DNA from: a bacterium
GTDB lineage: Bacteria; Planctomycetota; Planctomycetia; Planctomycetales; Planctomycetaceae
NCBI GenBank assembly: GCA_016124895.1
Contig: WGMU01000014.1
Location: forward strand, 1-64,000
Reading direction: 5' to 3'
Length of the DNA stretch: 64,000 nucleotides
The stretch's first letter is position 1. Each line of letters opens with the position of its first letter. The notes beneath the pieces are model-generated. The model was not told the DNA's origin, made no database searches, and saw only the letters and a program-made list of their open reading frames with translations. The translations under genes and the position numbers were made by a program. Positions 56,023 to 63,340 of this stretch are shown piece after piece.

Positions 56023-59000
56023 ATGGACACGTTTCAACTCGACACGCTCGACTGGATTCGGCTGCAATGCGCGGCTTGCGGTCAGACTGTTGAGATTCTG
56101 CGTCTCGATCTCGAAGCGAGCGGTGGTGCGTCGATCTGCTCTCCCTGCTGCGGAGCGAAACTGATTCCGCTTGACGAGTCTGGATCGAAGCCACCAGGGC
56201 TCGGCCCGCAGCAGCCGGAATCACAAGTCGCCGAGTCGCCGGTATCCAACTCGCAAAGACGCGACTTGTCGCCAGTCGAGTCACCCAAGTGCGAATCCTC
56301 CGTGTCTGACTCCGCAGCGGCCAGCTCAGAGTTTGATTTCGACTTTGCAGAAGCACCTGCCGACGTGACCGGCTTGCCAAACGAGGTTGATGCGAATCGA
56401 AACGGCGAGACTCGTGTTTCAGCGCCGGTCGCCGGAGCGACAATTCGTTGTGCGGGCCTGACGATCTCAAACGTCTGCGTCGACGGCATCGAGCCCAGTC
56501 TCGATCTGCGCACAAACGTTTGGGGCGATCGGCGTAAAAACTCGGCCAGTATTGCAGTCAGTGTCGTCGTTCACGGCATTCTGCTGCTGCTGCTCGCGGC
56601 AATTGTTTTTCACCTGCCGCCGCGAGTCGCGACTGACGCACTCAACGCATCGTTCGAGACATCGACCGATGAATTCGCAGCCGATGGGGCCTCGACACTC
56701 GACTCTGCGGAATTCACGACGGCCGTTCCGTTGACGATCCCTTCTGGGACAGCAGGCGGAAACCCCGCCGAGGATCCCGCAGTGTCAGTAGTCGCCGTCG
56801 AGACTGTGGCGCCGGCGGCGGCAGCCGATGCCGGGACAACTGACTTCATTCCGTCGATCGCGACGGGCACGTCAACATCCGGCGCAAAAGTCACTGCGAA
56901 TACAGAATTCGGAGGCCAGGTCGGAGCTGGTGGCACTGCCGGCGGAGGCTCCGGTTCGTCTGCTGGTCCAGCCTCGACAGATGAATGGAGAATTCCGACC
57001 GGCCTTGGGTTCGACAGTCGACGTCCGGAGGTGCGGCGTCAGTTGGCGGCGCTGAGCGGGGCGACGCCCGCCAGTGAGGCCGCCGTTCGCGCGGGCCTCA
57101 AATGGCTGGCAGCTCATCAGCGGGCGGACGGTTCGTGGAGCCTGCAGCACACTCACCCGGAATGCGGTGACGCGTGCCTGCCGAATGGTTCGATGGACTG
57201 CCCGACAGCGGCAACAGCCCTCGCTCTGCTGTGCTTTCTCGGCGCGGGCCATTCGCACCAGGAAGGCGACTATCAGCAGGTGGTGAAGCACGGGCTCGAC
57301 TGGCTGGTTGCTCAGTCGCGCGACGGTGATTTACGGATGCCACTGACCTTGCAGAATCCTGAAGGTCGATCAGGCATGTATGCGCATGGAGCCGCCTCAA
57401 TGGCATTGTGTGAGGCGTACGGGATGACGCTCGACAGGACTCTGATTCAGCCGTGCGAAGAATCCATCGCATTCATTGCTGCATCGCAGGATCCCACCGG
57501 CGGCGGCTGGCGATACACGCCCCAGGAACCGGGCGATACATCCGTCGTCGGCTGGCAGGTCATGGCACTGGTCAGTGCCCGACTGTCCGGACTCGAAGTT
57601 CCGGACGGTGTGCGGGACAAGGTCGTCCGGTTTCTGAAGTCAGTCTATTCGCCGTCAAACGGCGAGTTCGGATACAAGGGAACGCGGCGTGCCACAGTCG
57701 CAACGACGGCGATTGGTGATCTGTGCAGCCTGTATCTGCACTCCACATTTGAGCGCGGCGATCTTGAGCGAGTCGCACGGACGCTCGGTGCGCAGAACTC
57801 ACGGCAGAATGACGAATATGCGAACTACTATGTCTCGCTGGTTCTGCACCAGCTTGGCGGCGAGCACTGGCGGAAGTGGAACGCGACCTGTCGTGACACA
57901 CTCGTCGCGACTCAGAAGCAGCAGGGGCACGCTCGTGGAAGCTGGGATCCAGCGGGACGCTGGGGACGTACGGGCGGCCGGCTGTATTCAACCAGCATGA
58001 ACGTGCTGACGCTTGAGGTCTATTACAGGCATCTGCCGCTGTATGCCGAGCACGCTTTCGAACTTGGACTGGCATCAAAGCCAACGACGAAGAAGCGAAA
58101 GCCGACGGGCAGGCAGCCTCGAAACACGAGCGGAAAAGACAACGTCGCGGCACTCGAATTCGTTCCCGTTACGATGACAGAGCCAATCTCGCCTCCGGCA
58201 GATAACGATGCCGTCATCGAAGCTGGCCAGTCGCCTCTGATCATCGAGCCGCTGCCGGAGCAACGTCCGCTCTTTCCGCATGCGACGCGGTTCTGTTCGC
58301 CGCTGCGGAACCTGTTTGAAGAAGCGACGCTTCGCTCTGTCGCTGATGGAAACGGTCGAAAATGGCGGCTGTATCCCGATGCCGGGTTCGGCATGCCGTT
58401 GCTCAAGCTCGGCGAACGATCGCTCATTCATACGGGCGGCGATTTCGGCTGGTTTCAGCCAGACGAACCTGTCTTCGCAGCGGCAGCCGGCATTGTGCGT
58501 TACTCCGGAGTTCCGGCAACTGATAATGCAGACGGTGGCGTTTCATCCGGCTGGGGCAACACGATCGTGATCGAACATCAGCTTCCTGATGGTGCCGTGC
58601 TAATGACTGTTTATGCCCATCTGGGAATTGATCGACAGGCTGAAGCCGGCGACGTTGTCGCAGCCGGTCAGTTGATCGGTTCGATTGGTCAGCAGAGCAG
58701 GTCAATCAATGGCGACTGCGTGCCGCACCTGTTTTTTGCGATCCGGCCCGGTATGCCGGACGGGGCCGAGACACCGCTCGCCGCCTTCGCCGCCGACGTA
58801 AACGACTGGCTCGACCCGATTGCGTTTCTGCGCGAGCAGAAGGCCGATGTGCTGCCAGCGATTCGTTTCTCACCAACTCCGAACCCGGCACCAGTGTCGG
58901 AGACTCCCGTTGTCGGCCAACCGGCTTCGTCATGGTCGATCGACGAGTGGCTGAGAGTGCCGTTGCAGGGGGAGCGCGAAGTGGCAGACATGAAAGGCAA

Positions 59001-59412
59001 AACGGTTTGCCTGGTCTGCGTGCAGTCGTCGTGCGAGGCGTCTCGCGTACTCGGCGGATTGCTGCTGCAACAACTTGCTGAACGTTATGAGAACTCGCCA
59101 GACGTTGTCCTGATTCTGCTGCAGACGGCCATGATCGACTTCAAACAGAACTCGGCAGCGGCGCTGCGCGGGACTGCAGCGACGTTGCCTGGAAACGTCG
59201 CGATTGGTCACTGCGGCTCGGCAAAGAATCGCCCGCTCATTCTGAATCGATACGGAATTCGAGCAACGCCGTGGACGATTCTGATTCGCCCTGACGGAAC
59301 CGTTGCCGGCAGCGGCATCATGGTCGATGGCTCGGAAGTCGGTCGTTTGATCGATTCGCTTCGCAACGGAACTGAAACCACCATCAAAGGTGGGACTGAA
59401 ACTTCACAGTAG
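56023..59412 (+). CDS. Five-part fusion: zinc ribbon, membrane helix, alpha/alpha toroid, degenerate LytM, thioredoxin-like
   Basis: A 1129-residue protein. Residues 14-45 form a zinc ribbon-like unit (C16-A-A-C19 and C39-S-P-C42-C43). After an acidic stretch one membrane helix follows (about 171-196, IAVSVVVHGILLLLLAAIVF), placing the rest outside the cytoplasm. A Gly/Ser/Thr-rich linker leads to an alpha/alpha toroid (about 340-680; AAVRAGLKWLAAHQRADGSW, CEESIAFIAASQDPTGGGWR), the fold of terpene cyclases and thioester-protein relatives. Then comes an M23/LytM-like domain with His803 and Asp807 (HTGGDFGW), while the final HxH is H902-L-F904, so a zinc ligand is missing. The last 140 residues are thioredoxin-like (YGIRATPWTILIRPDGTVAG) with CEAS in place of CxxC. 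Its role is unknown; wall binding is an inference. Confidence 0.8.
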   Translation: MDTFQLDTLDWIRLQCAACGQTVEILRLDLEASGGASICSPCCGAKLIPLDESGSKPPGLGPQQPESQVAESPVSNSQRRDLSPVESPKCESSVSDSAAASSEFDFDFAEAPADVTGLPNEVDANRNGETRVSAPVAGATIRCAGLTISNVCVDGIEPSLDLRTNVWGDRRKNSASIAVSVVVHGILLLLLAAIVFHLPPRVATDALNASFETSTDEFAADGASTLDSAEFTTAVPLTIPSGTAGGNPAEDPAVSVVAVETVAPAAAADAGTTDFIPSIATGTSTSGAKVTANTEFGGQVGAGGTAGGGSGSSAGPASTDEWRIPTGLGFDSRRPEVRRQLAALSGATPASEAAVRAGLKWLAAHQRADGSWSLQHTHPECGDACLPNGSMDCPTAATALALLCFLGAGHSHQEGDYQQVVKHGLDWLVAQSRDGDLRMPLTLQNPEGRSGMYAHGAASMALCEAYGMTLDRTLIQPCEESIAFIAASQDPTGGGWRYTPQEPGDTSVVGWQVMALVSARLSGLEVPDGVRDKVVRFLKSVYSPSNGEFGYKGTRRATVATTAIGDLCSLYLHSTFERGDLERVARTLGAQNSRQNDEYANYYVSLVLHQLGGEHWRKWNATCRDTLVATQKQQGHARGSWDPAGRWGRTGGRLYSTSMNVLTLEVYYRHLPLYAEHAFELGLASKPTTKKRKPTGRQPRNTSGKDNVAALEFVPVTMTEPISPPADNDAVIEAGQSPLIIEPLPEQRPLFPHATRFCSPLRNLFEEATLRSVADGNGRKWRLYPDAGFGMPLLKLGERSLIHTGGDFGWFQPDEPVFAAAAGIVRYSGVPATDNADGGVSSGWGNTIVIEHQLPDGAVLMTVYAHLGIDRQAEAGDVVAAGQLIGSIGQQSRSINGDCVPHLFFAIRPGMPDGAETPLAAFAADVNDWLDPIAFLREQKADVLPAIRFSPTPNPAPVSETPVVGQPASSWSIDEWLRVPLQGEREVADMKGKTVCLVCVQSSCEASRVLGGLLLQQLAERYENSPDVVLILLQTAMIDFKQNSAAALRGTAATLPGNVAIGHCGSAKNRPLILNRYGIRATPWTILIRPDGTVAGSGIMVDGSEVGRLIDSLRNGTETTIKGGTETSQ

Positions 59413-59456: not shown

Positions 59457-60404
59457 TTACTTCACCTGCTTGCCTCCCCTCTCGGATTTGTTCGACGCGG
59501 CAGGCAGCGGTCGGTCGGGAACCAGTTCCGTCCGTCGGCCTTCGTTCAGTGTGAAGCGGATGACGCGTCGCGGCTGGTCGAGCCGATACGTCTCGCTTTT
59601 GACCTGTTCGCTCTTTGAACCACGATAGCGAATCCAGGTGACACGAAACGACTTGCCGACAATGTTCCCATCGACGTGCTCGATCGTCGCGCGGTAGTCG
59701 CCTTTCTGGCCGCGAACGCAGACATATTCCTCGAAGCAGTTGTCCGGCTTCGGGCCGTAACCGTCGTGAGTAAATGCGCCGCCACCGGCTGTCTGTGGGT
59801 CGTGAGTCGAGCACTTCGTGCCACACGGTTCCTCGACGGTCAGATCAAGATCACCGTCGCCTGACCATTCGACGCGAACGATCAGGTCACGGCGTTTCGC
59901 CTCCTGCAGTGCCGCGGCCATTCGGTCGGCCTCAGCGTTGCGTCCTTCACGCCGGAGAACCTGCTGAGTATCCAGAGATGTATCTTCCGCATTCTTGTGC
60001 TGTCGCTCGAACCCGCGGCCCCAGACCTGTGTGAGAATCCCGCTACTGGCCCACTGAATTGCTTCGGCGTCCTTCAGCTTTGTCGCGAGCTTGAGTCCCT
60101 GGAGGTACGGCTCGGCCTGTGAGGGCGATAGTCGCACTGCTTCCTGGTAAACACTCAACGCTGCCGACGGCGCATCAAGTTGCGTCAGAAATCTCGCGGA
60201 GTAAAGCAGGCCGTCAATATCCGTTGGTGAAAGGTCAACGCGCGACATCAGGACGCGTTGAATCTCGTCCTGCGGGAAATCGGCCAGCCGCATACTCATG
60301 GCAAGGATGTCAAACATCCACGGTTCCGATTGCCCGTTCGCCAGCGCTGCCTGCAGGAAGGCGACGATCTGCTCATACTGCTTCCGTTCGAGCAGTTGAG
60401 ACAC
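59457..60404 (-). CDS. TPR protein with C-terminal beta domain; start uncertain
   Basis: From the GTG at 60404 the product has 315 residues: TPR-like repeats (about 1-140; DILAMSMRLADFPQDEIQRV, SVYQEAVRLSPSQAEPYLQG), a charged helix and a C-terminal beta domain (about 170-300; IVRVEWSGDGDLDLTVEEPC, GDYRATIEHVDGNIVGKSF) reminiscent of DUF2135. Coding-like sequence continues upstream of the GTG in the same frame (TFEVWFRYFKENQPASEDVR, then an Ala/Ser-rich linker), but up to the stop at 60861-60863 there is no in-frame ATG, GTG or TTG. A CTG at 60587 is the only plausible alternative after the upstream terminator. The frame is also -1 to the vWA gene at its A9 run. The protein is therefore N-terminally incomplete as annotated, and the true start needs checking. 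Confidence 0.6.
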   Translation of the reverse strand: MSQLLERKQYEQIVAFLQAALANGQSEPWMFDILAMSMRLADFPQDEIQRVLMSRVDLSPTDIDGLLYSARFLTQLDAPSAALSVYQEAVRLSPSQAEPYLQGLKLATKLKDAEAIQWASSGILTQVWGRGFERQHKNAEDTSLDTQQVLRREGRNAEADRMAAALQEAKRRDLIVRVEWSGDGDLDLTVEEPCGTKCSTHDPQTAGGGAFTHDGYGPKPDNCFEEYVCVRGQKGDYRATIEHVDGNIVGKSFRVTWIRYRGSKSEQVKSETYRLDQPRRVIRFTLNEGRRTELVPDRPLPAASNKSERGGKQVK

Positions 60405-60733
60405 CGTTCTGCGTACGTCTTCTGACGCGGGCTGATTCTCTTTGAAGTAGCGGAACCAGACTTCAAACGTCGACGGCTGATCCGCTCGCTGGCTGGCTGG
60501 AACTGGCGCTGCGGCCGACTCACTTCCGTCGCCGGAAGCCGCTCTGGACGCTGTTTCGTCAACTTGAGCAACGAGCCGGACACGCAGTCGGCCACGATGA
60601 CGCGGCCCGTCAGAAGCATCGTGTTCTGAGTCCGCCGAGGACTGCGCAAAAAGCAGGGGTCGCCGCCGTGTTTCGGCCTGCGACCCCTGCAGAGTTTCAC
60701 CAGTCCGGACGGATTGCCCGGCTTCCGGATGAG
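60405..60733 (-). other. 329-base region, open frame without a start codon
   Basis: This region carries the open continuation of the TPR frame described above and the terminator of the vWA gene. The translation includes an Ala/Ser/Pro-rich linker of planctomycete style. It probably contains the real N-terminus of the TPR protein or, with frameshifting, a bridge from the vWA protein. Confidence 0.5.
60648..60690 (-). terminator. Intrinsic terminator after the vWA gene
   Basis: On the minus strand GCAGGGGTCGC and GCGACCCCTGC (plus coordinates 60680-60690 and 60653-60663) form a perfect 11-base stem with a 16-base loop, followed by five T residues (60652-60648). It lies 43 bases after the vWA stop and is one of the two strongest terminators in the window. 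Confidence 0.9.
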
Positions 60734-63340
60734 CTACGGTTTTTTTTTCAGGCCCGGAACTGCACGTTCCGCAACTTGAGTGAACCCGCTGAACGAATTT
60801 ACTCCGATCGAAGCCGAGTCTTCGCCGAGGATTCCGTCGAGAATATTCCGCAGCTTCGGATCAGCCGGCGCTTCCGCCTTTGCCGGGGCCTTCTGCTGTT
60901 GCGGCTTGCTCATCGCCTTCGGAACTGCTGGGGAAGCGATATTGAACATCCCCATGCCGCCGCCCATGCCGCCCATGCCGCCGCCCATGCCACCCATGCC
61001 GCCGCCCATGCCGCCCATCATGCCGCCGCCCATGCCACCCATCATTCCGCCGCCCATCATTGATTGGGCATTGAGCTGAATGACCAGGTCACCGACGGGA
61101 TAGACACGAGTCGGCAGTTTTGTCGGGTCGTTGGCCACGTCGACCGTCGTGATCTTCATCACCTCGTCTTCGATGATGTAGGTCAGGTCGAGTTCTTCGA
61201 GCATGATCTTCAGCGCGCTGCGAAGCGTAATGTTCGACAGCGGGGGAACATTCAGCGGCTCGTCCGAAGTCAGGCCGGCTTCCTCAATGGCCAGCTTGTC
61301 GATGATGATCGGAATCTCGAACTGCTTCGACAGGAAGTCAACAGCATCCTGCAGCGGGTAATCCGGGACGAAGTTGAGTGACGTGGGCTGCTCCAGTGCT
61401 GCCTGGATCTTGACTTCCGACGGTGAGGGATCGTAGAGCGTCACCGACGCGTACTTGGCACGGCGCTCAGACAGTGCCTTCCAGACTTCCGGAGCCGGCC
61501 AGCGGATCGGCGGTTCATCCGGGAACGGGACGTGGGACCGTTCAACCTGTTCGAGCGTCGCCAGAAAACGGTCAGCTCGCAGATTCCGCAGGTAATACGC
61601 CGTGTAAAGCTGCCCGGCCGCTTCTGAACCAACGCGAGCGGCCGTTGCTGTCCCATTGCCCGGCCGCAGACGAATCGCTTCCTGAGCGACGGCTTCTGCT
61701 TCGGAGTAGGCTGCTGAGTTACCGCGTTCGGCTTCGTTGAGCAGCGAACGAACCCGGTCGATCAGTCGCTCAATGTGGTCGTCTTCAAGCTGGAGCTGCT
61801 CGATCAGACGTTTCTGAGCATCGATTGCAGCGACGGCTTCCTGAGCACGAATCTCACGCAATTCCTGAACTTCCTTCTGTCCTTTGACGTCCGCGATCAC
61901 TCCCTGCAGACGCTTGCCGAGGCTCACCCGAACATCCGGGTTGATGTCACCGGCATCTTTGACGGCTGCCATTGTCTTCTTCAGCAGACTCAGAGCAACA
62001 TCCGGGTCTTCGCCAGCGACCTGCCGGGCCTGCTGAATCGTTGAAGAAACAATCAATTGCAGACGGTCGGTCTTGATCTGCTCAATGACGAGCTGTTCGT
62101 TGATCAGGCTGCCTTCCTGCTGAGCAGTCGCTGCGTCGGCCGTCGGGGCGTTTGGATCATTCGCAGCCTGCAGCAGACTGACATTCGTCACTGCCGCGGC
62201 CTTCAACAGCCGACCGGCATTTGAGTTCTGCGGATCAACCTGCTGTATGGCCTTGCCGATTTCGGCGGCCCGCTGCAGATCGCGGTCAACCAAGGCGGCG
62301 TCGCCGAGAGCCGCAAGCTGGCCAAGCTGCGCCGAAACATTCTGACGTGCTGATTGAAGAAGCTGCTCACCGGCAAATGGCACATCCAGCGGATGACTTT
62401 CAGCTCGCTGAGCCAGCACCGCCAGATATGAGTTCTCACTGGCAGGCTCTTCAGAAGTCGTTGCCCAGCGGATTTCGTCCGATTCGGTCTGGCCGACGAC
62501 GGCATTCGCCACCGCGCCACGGCCCAGCAGGACAGTCTCCCGGTCAGGACGAACCGGCAGAACTTCAGTGGGCAGCAGAGTCGTCGCCGAGTCTGTCGTC
62601 AGCGACTTAAGCCACACGGGAGAAATCTGCGCAAGGTCGGCGAGTTCCCTGCCGGCGGTTTCTGCTGGAACGTCGGCGTCGTCAATCAGAACACGGCCGC
62701 CGGTCCAGTGACTGAGAACACCCAGAAGCTGCAGATCGCGACGCGGGCCAATCGCGATGCTGTTGACCGGAACGCGAATGCCACGCAGACGCGCGATGAG
62801 TTTCTGCAGATCATTCTGTGCGATGATTCGCAGACCGCTGACGCCATCTCCGAAGTAAACGATCGACGCATTCTGGTTTGCAGCCAGTGAGGCGGCGGTG
62901 TCGAGCGCCTGACCGAGATCGGTCGCTCCCAGCGGAGCCCGGCGTTCAAGCTTTGCCACGGCCTGTCGTGCAGCATCACTGCGAACGCCGACAAAGCTCG
63001 AAGTCAGTTCATTTGGAGCGACGTCGATCGCCAGCAGCCGAATCTCAGCGGAGTCCGGCAATGCGGCAAGGAAGCTGTTCAGCACTCCAAGTGCCTGCCG
63101 ACGGTGCTCGCCCGTCTGACTGGCCGACGTGTCGAACAGAACGACGTGCTTCTGCAGCTTCGAGTGGCTTAGATCTTCCGGAGCCTTGAGCTGGACGGCG
63201 TAAACGTTCTCGCCAGACTCGCTGCGATACTGAAGCACTCGGGCCGACGGGCCTTCCGCTGCAGACACTCGGCTGTGCTGGCTGAGTGCGACCGCGAGCG
63301 AAAGCCCGAACATCGCGAGGCGTGAAAATCGAGACGGCAT
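60734..63340 (-). CDS. vWA protein with STN-like C-terminal domain and Met/Gly tail
   Basis: An 868-residue exported protein (signal peptide LAMFGLSLAVALSQHSRVSA). A von Willebrand A domain follows with the MIDAS D70-T-S-A-S74 (HVVLFDTSASQ) and the later ATDLGQAL and VYFGDGVSG. Next is a long helical region (about 330-560, rich in Ala, Gln and Glu) and, near residues 650-760, a secretin/STN-like domain (LNFVPDYPLQDAVDFLSKQF, IPIIIDKLAI, LRSALKIMLEELDLTYIIED). A Met/Gly-rich stretch (about 785-825) precedes the tail, which ends GLKKKP-stop on an A9 run. vWA plus STN proteins of this type are common in planctomycetes; the function is unknown, perhaps assembly or scaffold outside the cytoplasm. 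A terminator follows 43 bases after the stop. Confidence 0.85.
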   Translation of the reverse strand: MPSRFSRLAMFGLSLAVALSQHSRVSAAEGPSARVLQYRSESGENVYAVQLKAPEDLSHSKLQKHVVLFDTSASQTGEHRRQALGVLNSFLAALPDSAEIRLLAIDVAPNELTSSFVGVRSDAARQAVAKLERRAPLGATDLGQALDTAASLAANQNASIVYFGDGVSGLRIIAQNDLQKLIARLRGIRVPVNSIAIGPRRDLQLLGVLSHWTGGRVLIDDADVPAETAGRELADLAQISPVWLKSLTTDSATTLLPTEVLPVRPDRETVLLGRGAVANAVVGQTESDEIRWATTSEEPASENSYLAVLAQRAESHPLDVPFAGEQLLQSARQNVSAQLGQLAALGDAALVDRDLQRAAEIGKAIQQVDPQNSNAGRLLKAAAVTNVSLLQAANDPNAPTADAATAQQEGSLINEQLVIEQIKTDRLQLIVSSTIQQARQVAGEDPDVALSLLKKTMAAVKDAGDINPDVRVSLGKRLQGVIADVKGQKEVQELREIRAQEAVAAIDAQKRLIEQLQLEDDHIERLIDRVRSLLNEAERGNSAAYSEAEAVAQEAIRLRPGNGTATAARVGSEAAGQLYTAYYLRNLRADRFLATLEQVERSHVPFPDEPPIRWPAPEVWKALSERRAKYASVTLYDPSPSEVKIQAALEQPTSLNFVPDYPLQDAVDFLSKQFEIPIIIDKLAIEEAGLTSDEPLNVPPLSNITLRSALKIMLEELDLTYIIEDEVMKITTVDVANDPTKLPTRVYPVGDLVIQLNAQSMMGGGMMGGMGGGMMGGMGGGMGGMGGGMGGMGGGMGMFNIASPAVPKAMSKPQQQKAPAKAEAPADPKLRNILDGILGEDSASIGVNSFSGFTQVAERAVPGLKKKP
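60949..61062 (-). repeat. Short tandem repeats encoding the Met/Gly stretch
   Basis: Units related to CCCATGCCGCCG (plus strand) repeat across about 110 bases inside the vWA gene and encode MMGGGMMGGMGGG-type sequence. The copy number may vary between strains and is a possible site of in-frame expansion. Confidence 0.75.

Follow-up and report, generated by a model that had tools for sequence, protein, structure and literature searches.

Architecture of the locus

The window, which means here the whole 64,000-nucleotide stretch of Planctomycetaceae DNA that was analysed, carries on its minus strand a vWA gene whose end, read directly, is ...CTG AAA AAA AAA CCG TAG (Table 1). The run of nine A's (A9) leads in the −1 frame into a TPR gene, as the first-pass annotation had claimed; its statement that no ATG, GTG or TTG lies between the upstream stop (60861-60863) and position 60404 also held. 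The −1 frame is open for 467 codons, from 60860 to the stop ending at 59457, and its earliest such codon is GTG at 60404, already within the conserved domain. When the possible transcript versions were translated, the one with ten A's (A10) gave 1,294 residues, which agrees with the fusion of about 1290 residues proposed earlier. The unslipped version gave 868 residues and an A8 version 880.

Table 1. Features of the vWA/TPR locus and their coordinates in the window
Feature	Position	Strand	Description
vWA gene	63340-60734	minus	ORF; signal-peptide-like N-terminus, vWA domain, STN/N0-like domain and Gly/Met-rich tail; 868 aa when unslipped
A9 run, proposed slippage site	60748-60740	minus	3 nt upstream of the vWA stop codon
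vWA stop codon TAG	60736-60734	minus	direct reading; used by unslipped transcripts
Linker in the −1 frame (VAHPEAGQ...)	60738-60462	minus	stop-free; excess of third-position substitutions across relatives; contains the terminator-like hairpin
Terminator-like hairpin and T5 tail	60690-60648	minus	inside the −1 frame, 46 nt past the first base of the vWA stop codon
TPR and beta-sandwich module	60461-59457	minus	profile match 60461-59520; AF2 model; TPR fold; strong purifying selection; C-terminal extension

No second run of this kind occurs in the window, in which 0.16 would be expected, and the A9 run is one of seven runs of at least nine A's in the 8.13-Mb genome. The other six are all inside or beside single ORFs, and none of them joins long frames. 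These six (G000 contigs C101, C135, C146, C161, C168 and C183; L321-L328) are mostly mid-way in long ORFs, where slippage would yield truncated products.

Two neighbouring features should be mentioned. A gene of 1,129 aa converges on the locus from the plus strand (56023-59412). It has squalene-hopene-cyclase-like repeats as well as an M23 peptidase domain, and 44 nt separate its end from the TPR stop. Upstream of the slip site, a Gly/Met-rich repeat (60950-61065), also seen in the orthologues, is highly variable in length and interrupts the frames in some draft assemblies (G093 and G191). The initial calls of a +1 frame in G093 and a 0 frame in G191 were rejected: frame breaks or N's are found in the Gly-rich region, and the true junctions are A9 with a −1 shift.

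The vWA domain was identified by Pfam (VWA_3, 2.7e-14). The fold of the STN/N0-like domain was assigned from the AF2 model with Foldseek, by which PilQ N0, EscC and PupA were matched with weak E-values. The AF2 model of the TPR/beta module (pLDDT of 88.5) consists of TPR helices and a beta-sandwich; no name for this module was found in NCBIfam or Pfam beyond weak TPR matches. These domains and predicted folds suggest a protein that is exported, associated with the envelope and produced in two versions, one of which lacks the TPR/beta module, although this is an inference and the function is not known.

The junction in related genomes

Relatives of the vWA gene were found in all 59 of the genomes compared and the TPR module in 56 of them; within the family of the window the module was present in 158 of 170 genomes. 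The junction was extracted from 130 Planctomycetaceae genomes, of which 128 were split (51 genera, members including Gimesia, Schlesneria, Thalassoglobus neptunius and Planctomicrobium). Exactly nine A's were present in 123 of the 128, the remainder being A8G (three) and A10 (two). The run lies 0-42 nt upstream of the vWA stop, and in none of the 128 do these gene regions have another A-run longer than seven. In a second family, surveyed through G050, which we take to be Isosphaeraceae from its member G042 (Isosphaera pallida), A9 was present in all 39 readable split genomes. There it is located 5 or 7 nt upstream of the stop, in codon phase 1 (phase 2 in two genomes).

In Pirellulales (Blastopirellula marina and Aeoliella) and other families, one of which is probably Gemmataceae, the same domains are encoded in a single in-frame ORF without A9. 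The orthologues in the genomes read show either the A9 split or a single in-frame gene. Across both families the split state was observed in all but two of about 170 readable genomes. The exceptions, G164 (Planctomycetaceae) and G221 (Isosphaeraceae), have A10 and an in-frame ORF. It should be mentioned that the genomes in these counts are not phylogenetically independent. In the tree, each family forms one group. Because the deep branching is weakly supported (62%), a single origin with losses and two origins cannot be distinguished, and either is possible.

Two further observations were made during the survey. In one genome of another family (f6; G041, contig C165, L188) a frame change likewise separates the vWA frame from the TPR frame, with no A-run of seven or more; the junction may be of another type, or the sequence may be in error, either being possible. 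Two MAG records (L207 and L275), labelled as Candidatus Kuenenia and uncultured Anaerolineae, contain planctomycete vWA-TPR or TPR sequences, and their names or bins appear to be wrong.

In Planctomycetaceae linkers, no stop was found among 8,082 codons of the TPR frame, compared with 139 of 7,954 and 375 of 7,954 in the other two frames. Between the vWA stop and the hairpin the corresponding values are 0 of 1,973, 35 of 1,933 and 153 of 1,903; therefore, reading of the TPR frame starts before the terminator. Of the linker substitutions, 53% fall on third positions of this frame, the bias being modest (42%) in the short stretch upstream of the hairpin. The TPR domain itself is under strong purifying selection (synonymous:nonsynonymous, 2635:297). 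Between the run and the TPR domain, 23 of the 128 genomes have no ATG, GTG or TTG and 107 have no ATG; 105 have some in-frame codon of the three, mostly GTG or TTG. No normal start codon for the TPR gene was conserved among the orthologues in the genomes read.

Two properties expected of a slippage gene are thus present: both frames are under coding selection and conserved in homologues, and a homopolymer of slippage-prone length lies at the frame junction. Since the linker is stop-free, selection acts on the TPR frame and conserved starts are lacking, the split gene is almost certainly expressed by recoding, so that a short protein of 868 aa is made alongside a fusion of 1,294 aa, though no wet-lab data support this at present. 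Of the options raised by the first-pass annotation, this comparative evidence strongly favours a fused product that arises through frameshifting or transcriptional slippage. Its option of a CTG start failed, because such a start explains neither A9 nor the open, weakly codon-biased frame upstream of the terminator. It had named as refuting observations reads with 8 or 10 A's, or orthologues with a normal start and no frame relation; neither was encountered in the genomes read.

The terminator-like hairpin and the proposed mode of slippage

The hairpin of the window (60690-60653) has a perfect 11-bp outer stem and a folding energy of −31.3 kcal/mol, and is followed by TTTTT (60652-60648). The earlier claim of a perfect terminator between the genes therefore held as a matter of sequence. 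A generic terminator scan of the window did not list this hairpin, probably owing to its loop limit of 3-8 nt. The linkers were scored with the d'Aubenton Carafa formula, with identical constants across all sets. In Planctomycetaceae the median score was −2.1 and 43% of linkers were above zero, compared with −53 and 1% for dinucleotide-shuffled controls. None of the flanking coding sequences or 24 in-frame fusion linkers scored above zero, and control medians ranged overall from −44 to −57. In Isosphaeraceae the median was −13 against −49 in shuffles, with 19% above zero and weaker tails. About a quarter of the linkers are weak as terminators, mostly owing to short T-tracts. A GC-rich hairpin with a T-tract above chance, as required of an intrinsic terminator, is thus present, some members having weak tails.

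The sequence of the hairpin varies among genera while its pairing is kept: in genus g73, 9 of 16 pairs have a compensatory change. The hairpins of distant genera often have a common GCGGAG...CTCCGC outer stem, which was seen in the linkers of many genera. The distance from the stop to the hairpin has a median of 53 nt and a minimum of 18. A terminator was found past the 3′ end of 9 of 14 in-frame fusion genes and past none of 65 Planctomycetaceae TPR 3′ ends. In G164 the hairpin is lost. In G221 it is kept; the near-identical sister of this genome, G222, has A9, and the A10 of G221 is possibly a recent change or an error. The first-pass annotation had regarded the terminator as making the arrangement odd; it turned out to be a conserved part of it.

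Programmed slippage at A9, by which one gene gives two products, is likely and is the best explanation overall, in the absence of transcript or peptide data. It also seems likely, again by inference without transcript data, that RNA polymerase rather than the ribosome slips. According to published work, A9/T9 runs are long enough to be prone to slippage (PMC1088944, PMC5009743). In many bacteria, A/T runs that would slip are visibly selected against once they reach nine (PMC1088944), and the A9 of Thermus dnaX slips efficiently (PMC5009743). In the planctomycete genes the run has nine A's whether it begins in codon phase 0, 1 or 2. In four genomes of three genera (G100, G101, G026 and G111), the TPR frame is at +1 and is reachable by A8 or A11, so that the shift is not always −1, whereas programmed −1 ribosomal frameshifting would require it to be. 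Upstream of the run no Shine-Dalgarno (SD) enrichment was detected: SD-like sequences were present in 3 of 128 genomes, below the 6% background. No strong stem is adjacent to the run, where 40 nt fold with −8.5 kcal/mol compared with −7.2 in shuffles. Polymerase slippage is favoured because the length is constant in three phases, +1 users exist and ribosomal stimulators are missing.

According to this model, RNA polymerase would slip at the A9 run while making some of the transcripts. One added A (A10) would lead the ribosome into the −1 frame, and the exported protein with its vWA, STN-like and Gly-rich parts would be extended by the TPR/beta module to 1,294 aa; unslipped transcripts would give the 868-aa vWA protein. 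The full reading includes the hairpin. On an unslipped transcript the ribosome would halt at least 18 nt (median 53) before the hairpin and leave it free to form; together with the T-tract it would end transcription, giving a short mRNA and the short protein. On a slipped transcript the ribosome would translate on through the hairpin region in the −1 frame and hinder termination, so that a long mRNA and the fusion protein would result. In other words, slippage would gate an attenuator-like terminator.

That the conserved hairpin acts as a terminator and is gated is inferred from sequence without transcript data, and might equally well be true or false. The same balance applies to the full reading of a slip-gated terminator conserved in two families, with slipped and unslipped messages differing in length; its ribosome-dependent readthrough is likewise inferred. 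The gating rests on the stop-hairpin geometry and on one lineage (G164), with G221 as a counter-example; this evidence is only suggestive.

Alternative explanations

The alternative that survives best overlaps with the best explanation and has about the same chance of being right as gating: slippage makes the fusion, and the terminator is ungated, lowering readthrough equally or giving the short mRNA a more stable 3′ end. For a terminator found where a gene ends, no simpler interpretation exists, and partial readthrough would be enough. Against it, two events independent of each other would be needed for the fusion, a coding linker retains the hairpin at a stop distance that frees it only on unslipped transcripts, and the hairpin is gone in G164; each of these points is no more than suggestive.

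Programmed −1 ribosomal frameshifting at A_AAA_AAA, with a faithful mRNA and the hairpin as a terminator or distant stimulator, is unlikely. In its favour, an A_AAA_AAA in the proper frame can be read within every A9, most junctions call for a −1 shift, A8G variants yield the classic ribosomal heptamer A_AAA_AAG, and long-range stimulators 44-104 nt away are known in some IS elements (PMC5009743). The slippery heptamer in the right phase is not discriminating, since A9 always contains it. Seven A's would suffice, yet nine are kept in all three phases; a +1 shift is needed in four genomes; and the rarity of SD-like sequences (3/128) and the lack of a strong stem at the usual spacing also speak against this model. 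The hairpin was rejected as a ribosomal stimulator because it is too distant (median 53 nt past the stop). Some contribution of ribosomal −1 slippage at A9 nevertheless remains possible. In L045, L133 and L170 (G035, G168 and G150), AAA AAA AAG replaces A9; a switch from polymerase to ribosome slippage in the A8G genomes is conceivable.

It is very unlikely that the two genes are separate, the vWA gene ending at its terminator and the TPR gene having a promoter of its own and starting internally or at a non-standard codon (CTG or GTG 60404). A terminator in between, the presence of GTG 60404 and the in-frame ATG/GTG/TTG codons in 105 of 128 genomes are consistent with this view. However, in all genomes the TPR frame can be followed back past the A-run without interruption, and no stops lie before the hairpin; start positions are not conserved, with SD-like sequences in 12 of 128; a start at GTG 60404 would remove the conserved W..YF first helix; and both A9 and the in-frame fusion of the outgroups are left unexplained. 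From the survey of start codons and SD sequences in 128 genomes, an internal TPR start was rejected as a general mechanism.

Phase variation, in which replication slippage at A9 would act as a mutational on/off switch of a fused gene, is all but excluded: A-runs are mutable and G164 and G221 have A10 with an in-frame ORF, but the split state is otherwise fixed, whereas a contingency locus should vary in tract length and frame between related genomes. An assembly or sequencing indel, another option of the first-pass annotation, was rejected, since the A9 junction was found again in about 165 other genomes, several of them single-contig.

Comparison with known systems

The slippage proposed here resembles that of Thermus thermophilus dnaX, in which A9 late in a cellular gene gives heterogeneous mRNA and a pair of proteins that share their N-terminus (PMC1088944, PMC5009743). 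However, slippage in dnaX truncates the standard product, whereas in the planctomycete gene it would lengthen the product by 427 residues, among them two folded domains, and the terminator within the extension is a feature of the latter. Slippage genes are also known from Citrobacter rodentium (tssM1) and Shigella (mxiE/spa). There, too, a poly-A run ahead of a stop allows two frames to be joined, with an efficiency of 15-55%, and both tssM1 products are needed (PMC4256274). Unlike the present case, tssM1 has A11 in an interrupted gene of one lineage and shifts in the other direction; no terminator is mentioned (PMC4256274). A conserved A-run between two ORFs is also found in IS elements and GeneTack poly-A frameshift clusters (PMC3711429, PMC1088944), whereas the planctomycete case is a cellular core gene in two families. 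Planctomycetes were represented by two species in the survey of such clusters, and a vWA/TPR gene is not mentioned in its main text.

In trp/tna attenuation, the position of the ribosome decides whether an intrinsic terminator forms. The proposed gate is similar in this control, but its switch would be the frame of the mRNA itself, set by polymerase slippage, and it lies at the end of a full gene rather than in a leader. No report of recoding coupled in this way to transcription termination was found in the literature searched. As far as that literature goes, the gene arrangement is unreported, programmed transcriptional slippage itself being known; what is new is its unusually wide conservation and the embedded terminator.

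Few cases of programmed transcriptional slippage in cellular genes are known, and most are lineage-restricted. The planctomycete slippage looks fixed in a core gene of two families (about 165 genomes of over 160 species), which ordinary gene finders show merely as two genes with a missing start. The nine A's in three phases, the +1 and −1 users, the A8G variants and the secondary in-frame fusions form a natural panel for the tuning of polymerase slippage. If the gate is true, it would be a way of coupling recoding to transcription termination that has no report in the literature searched.
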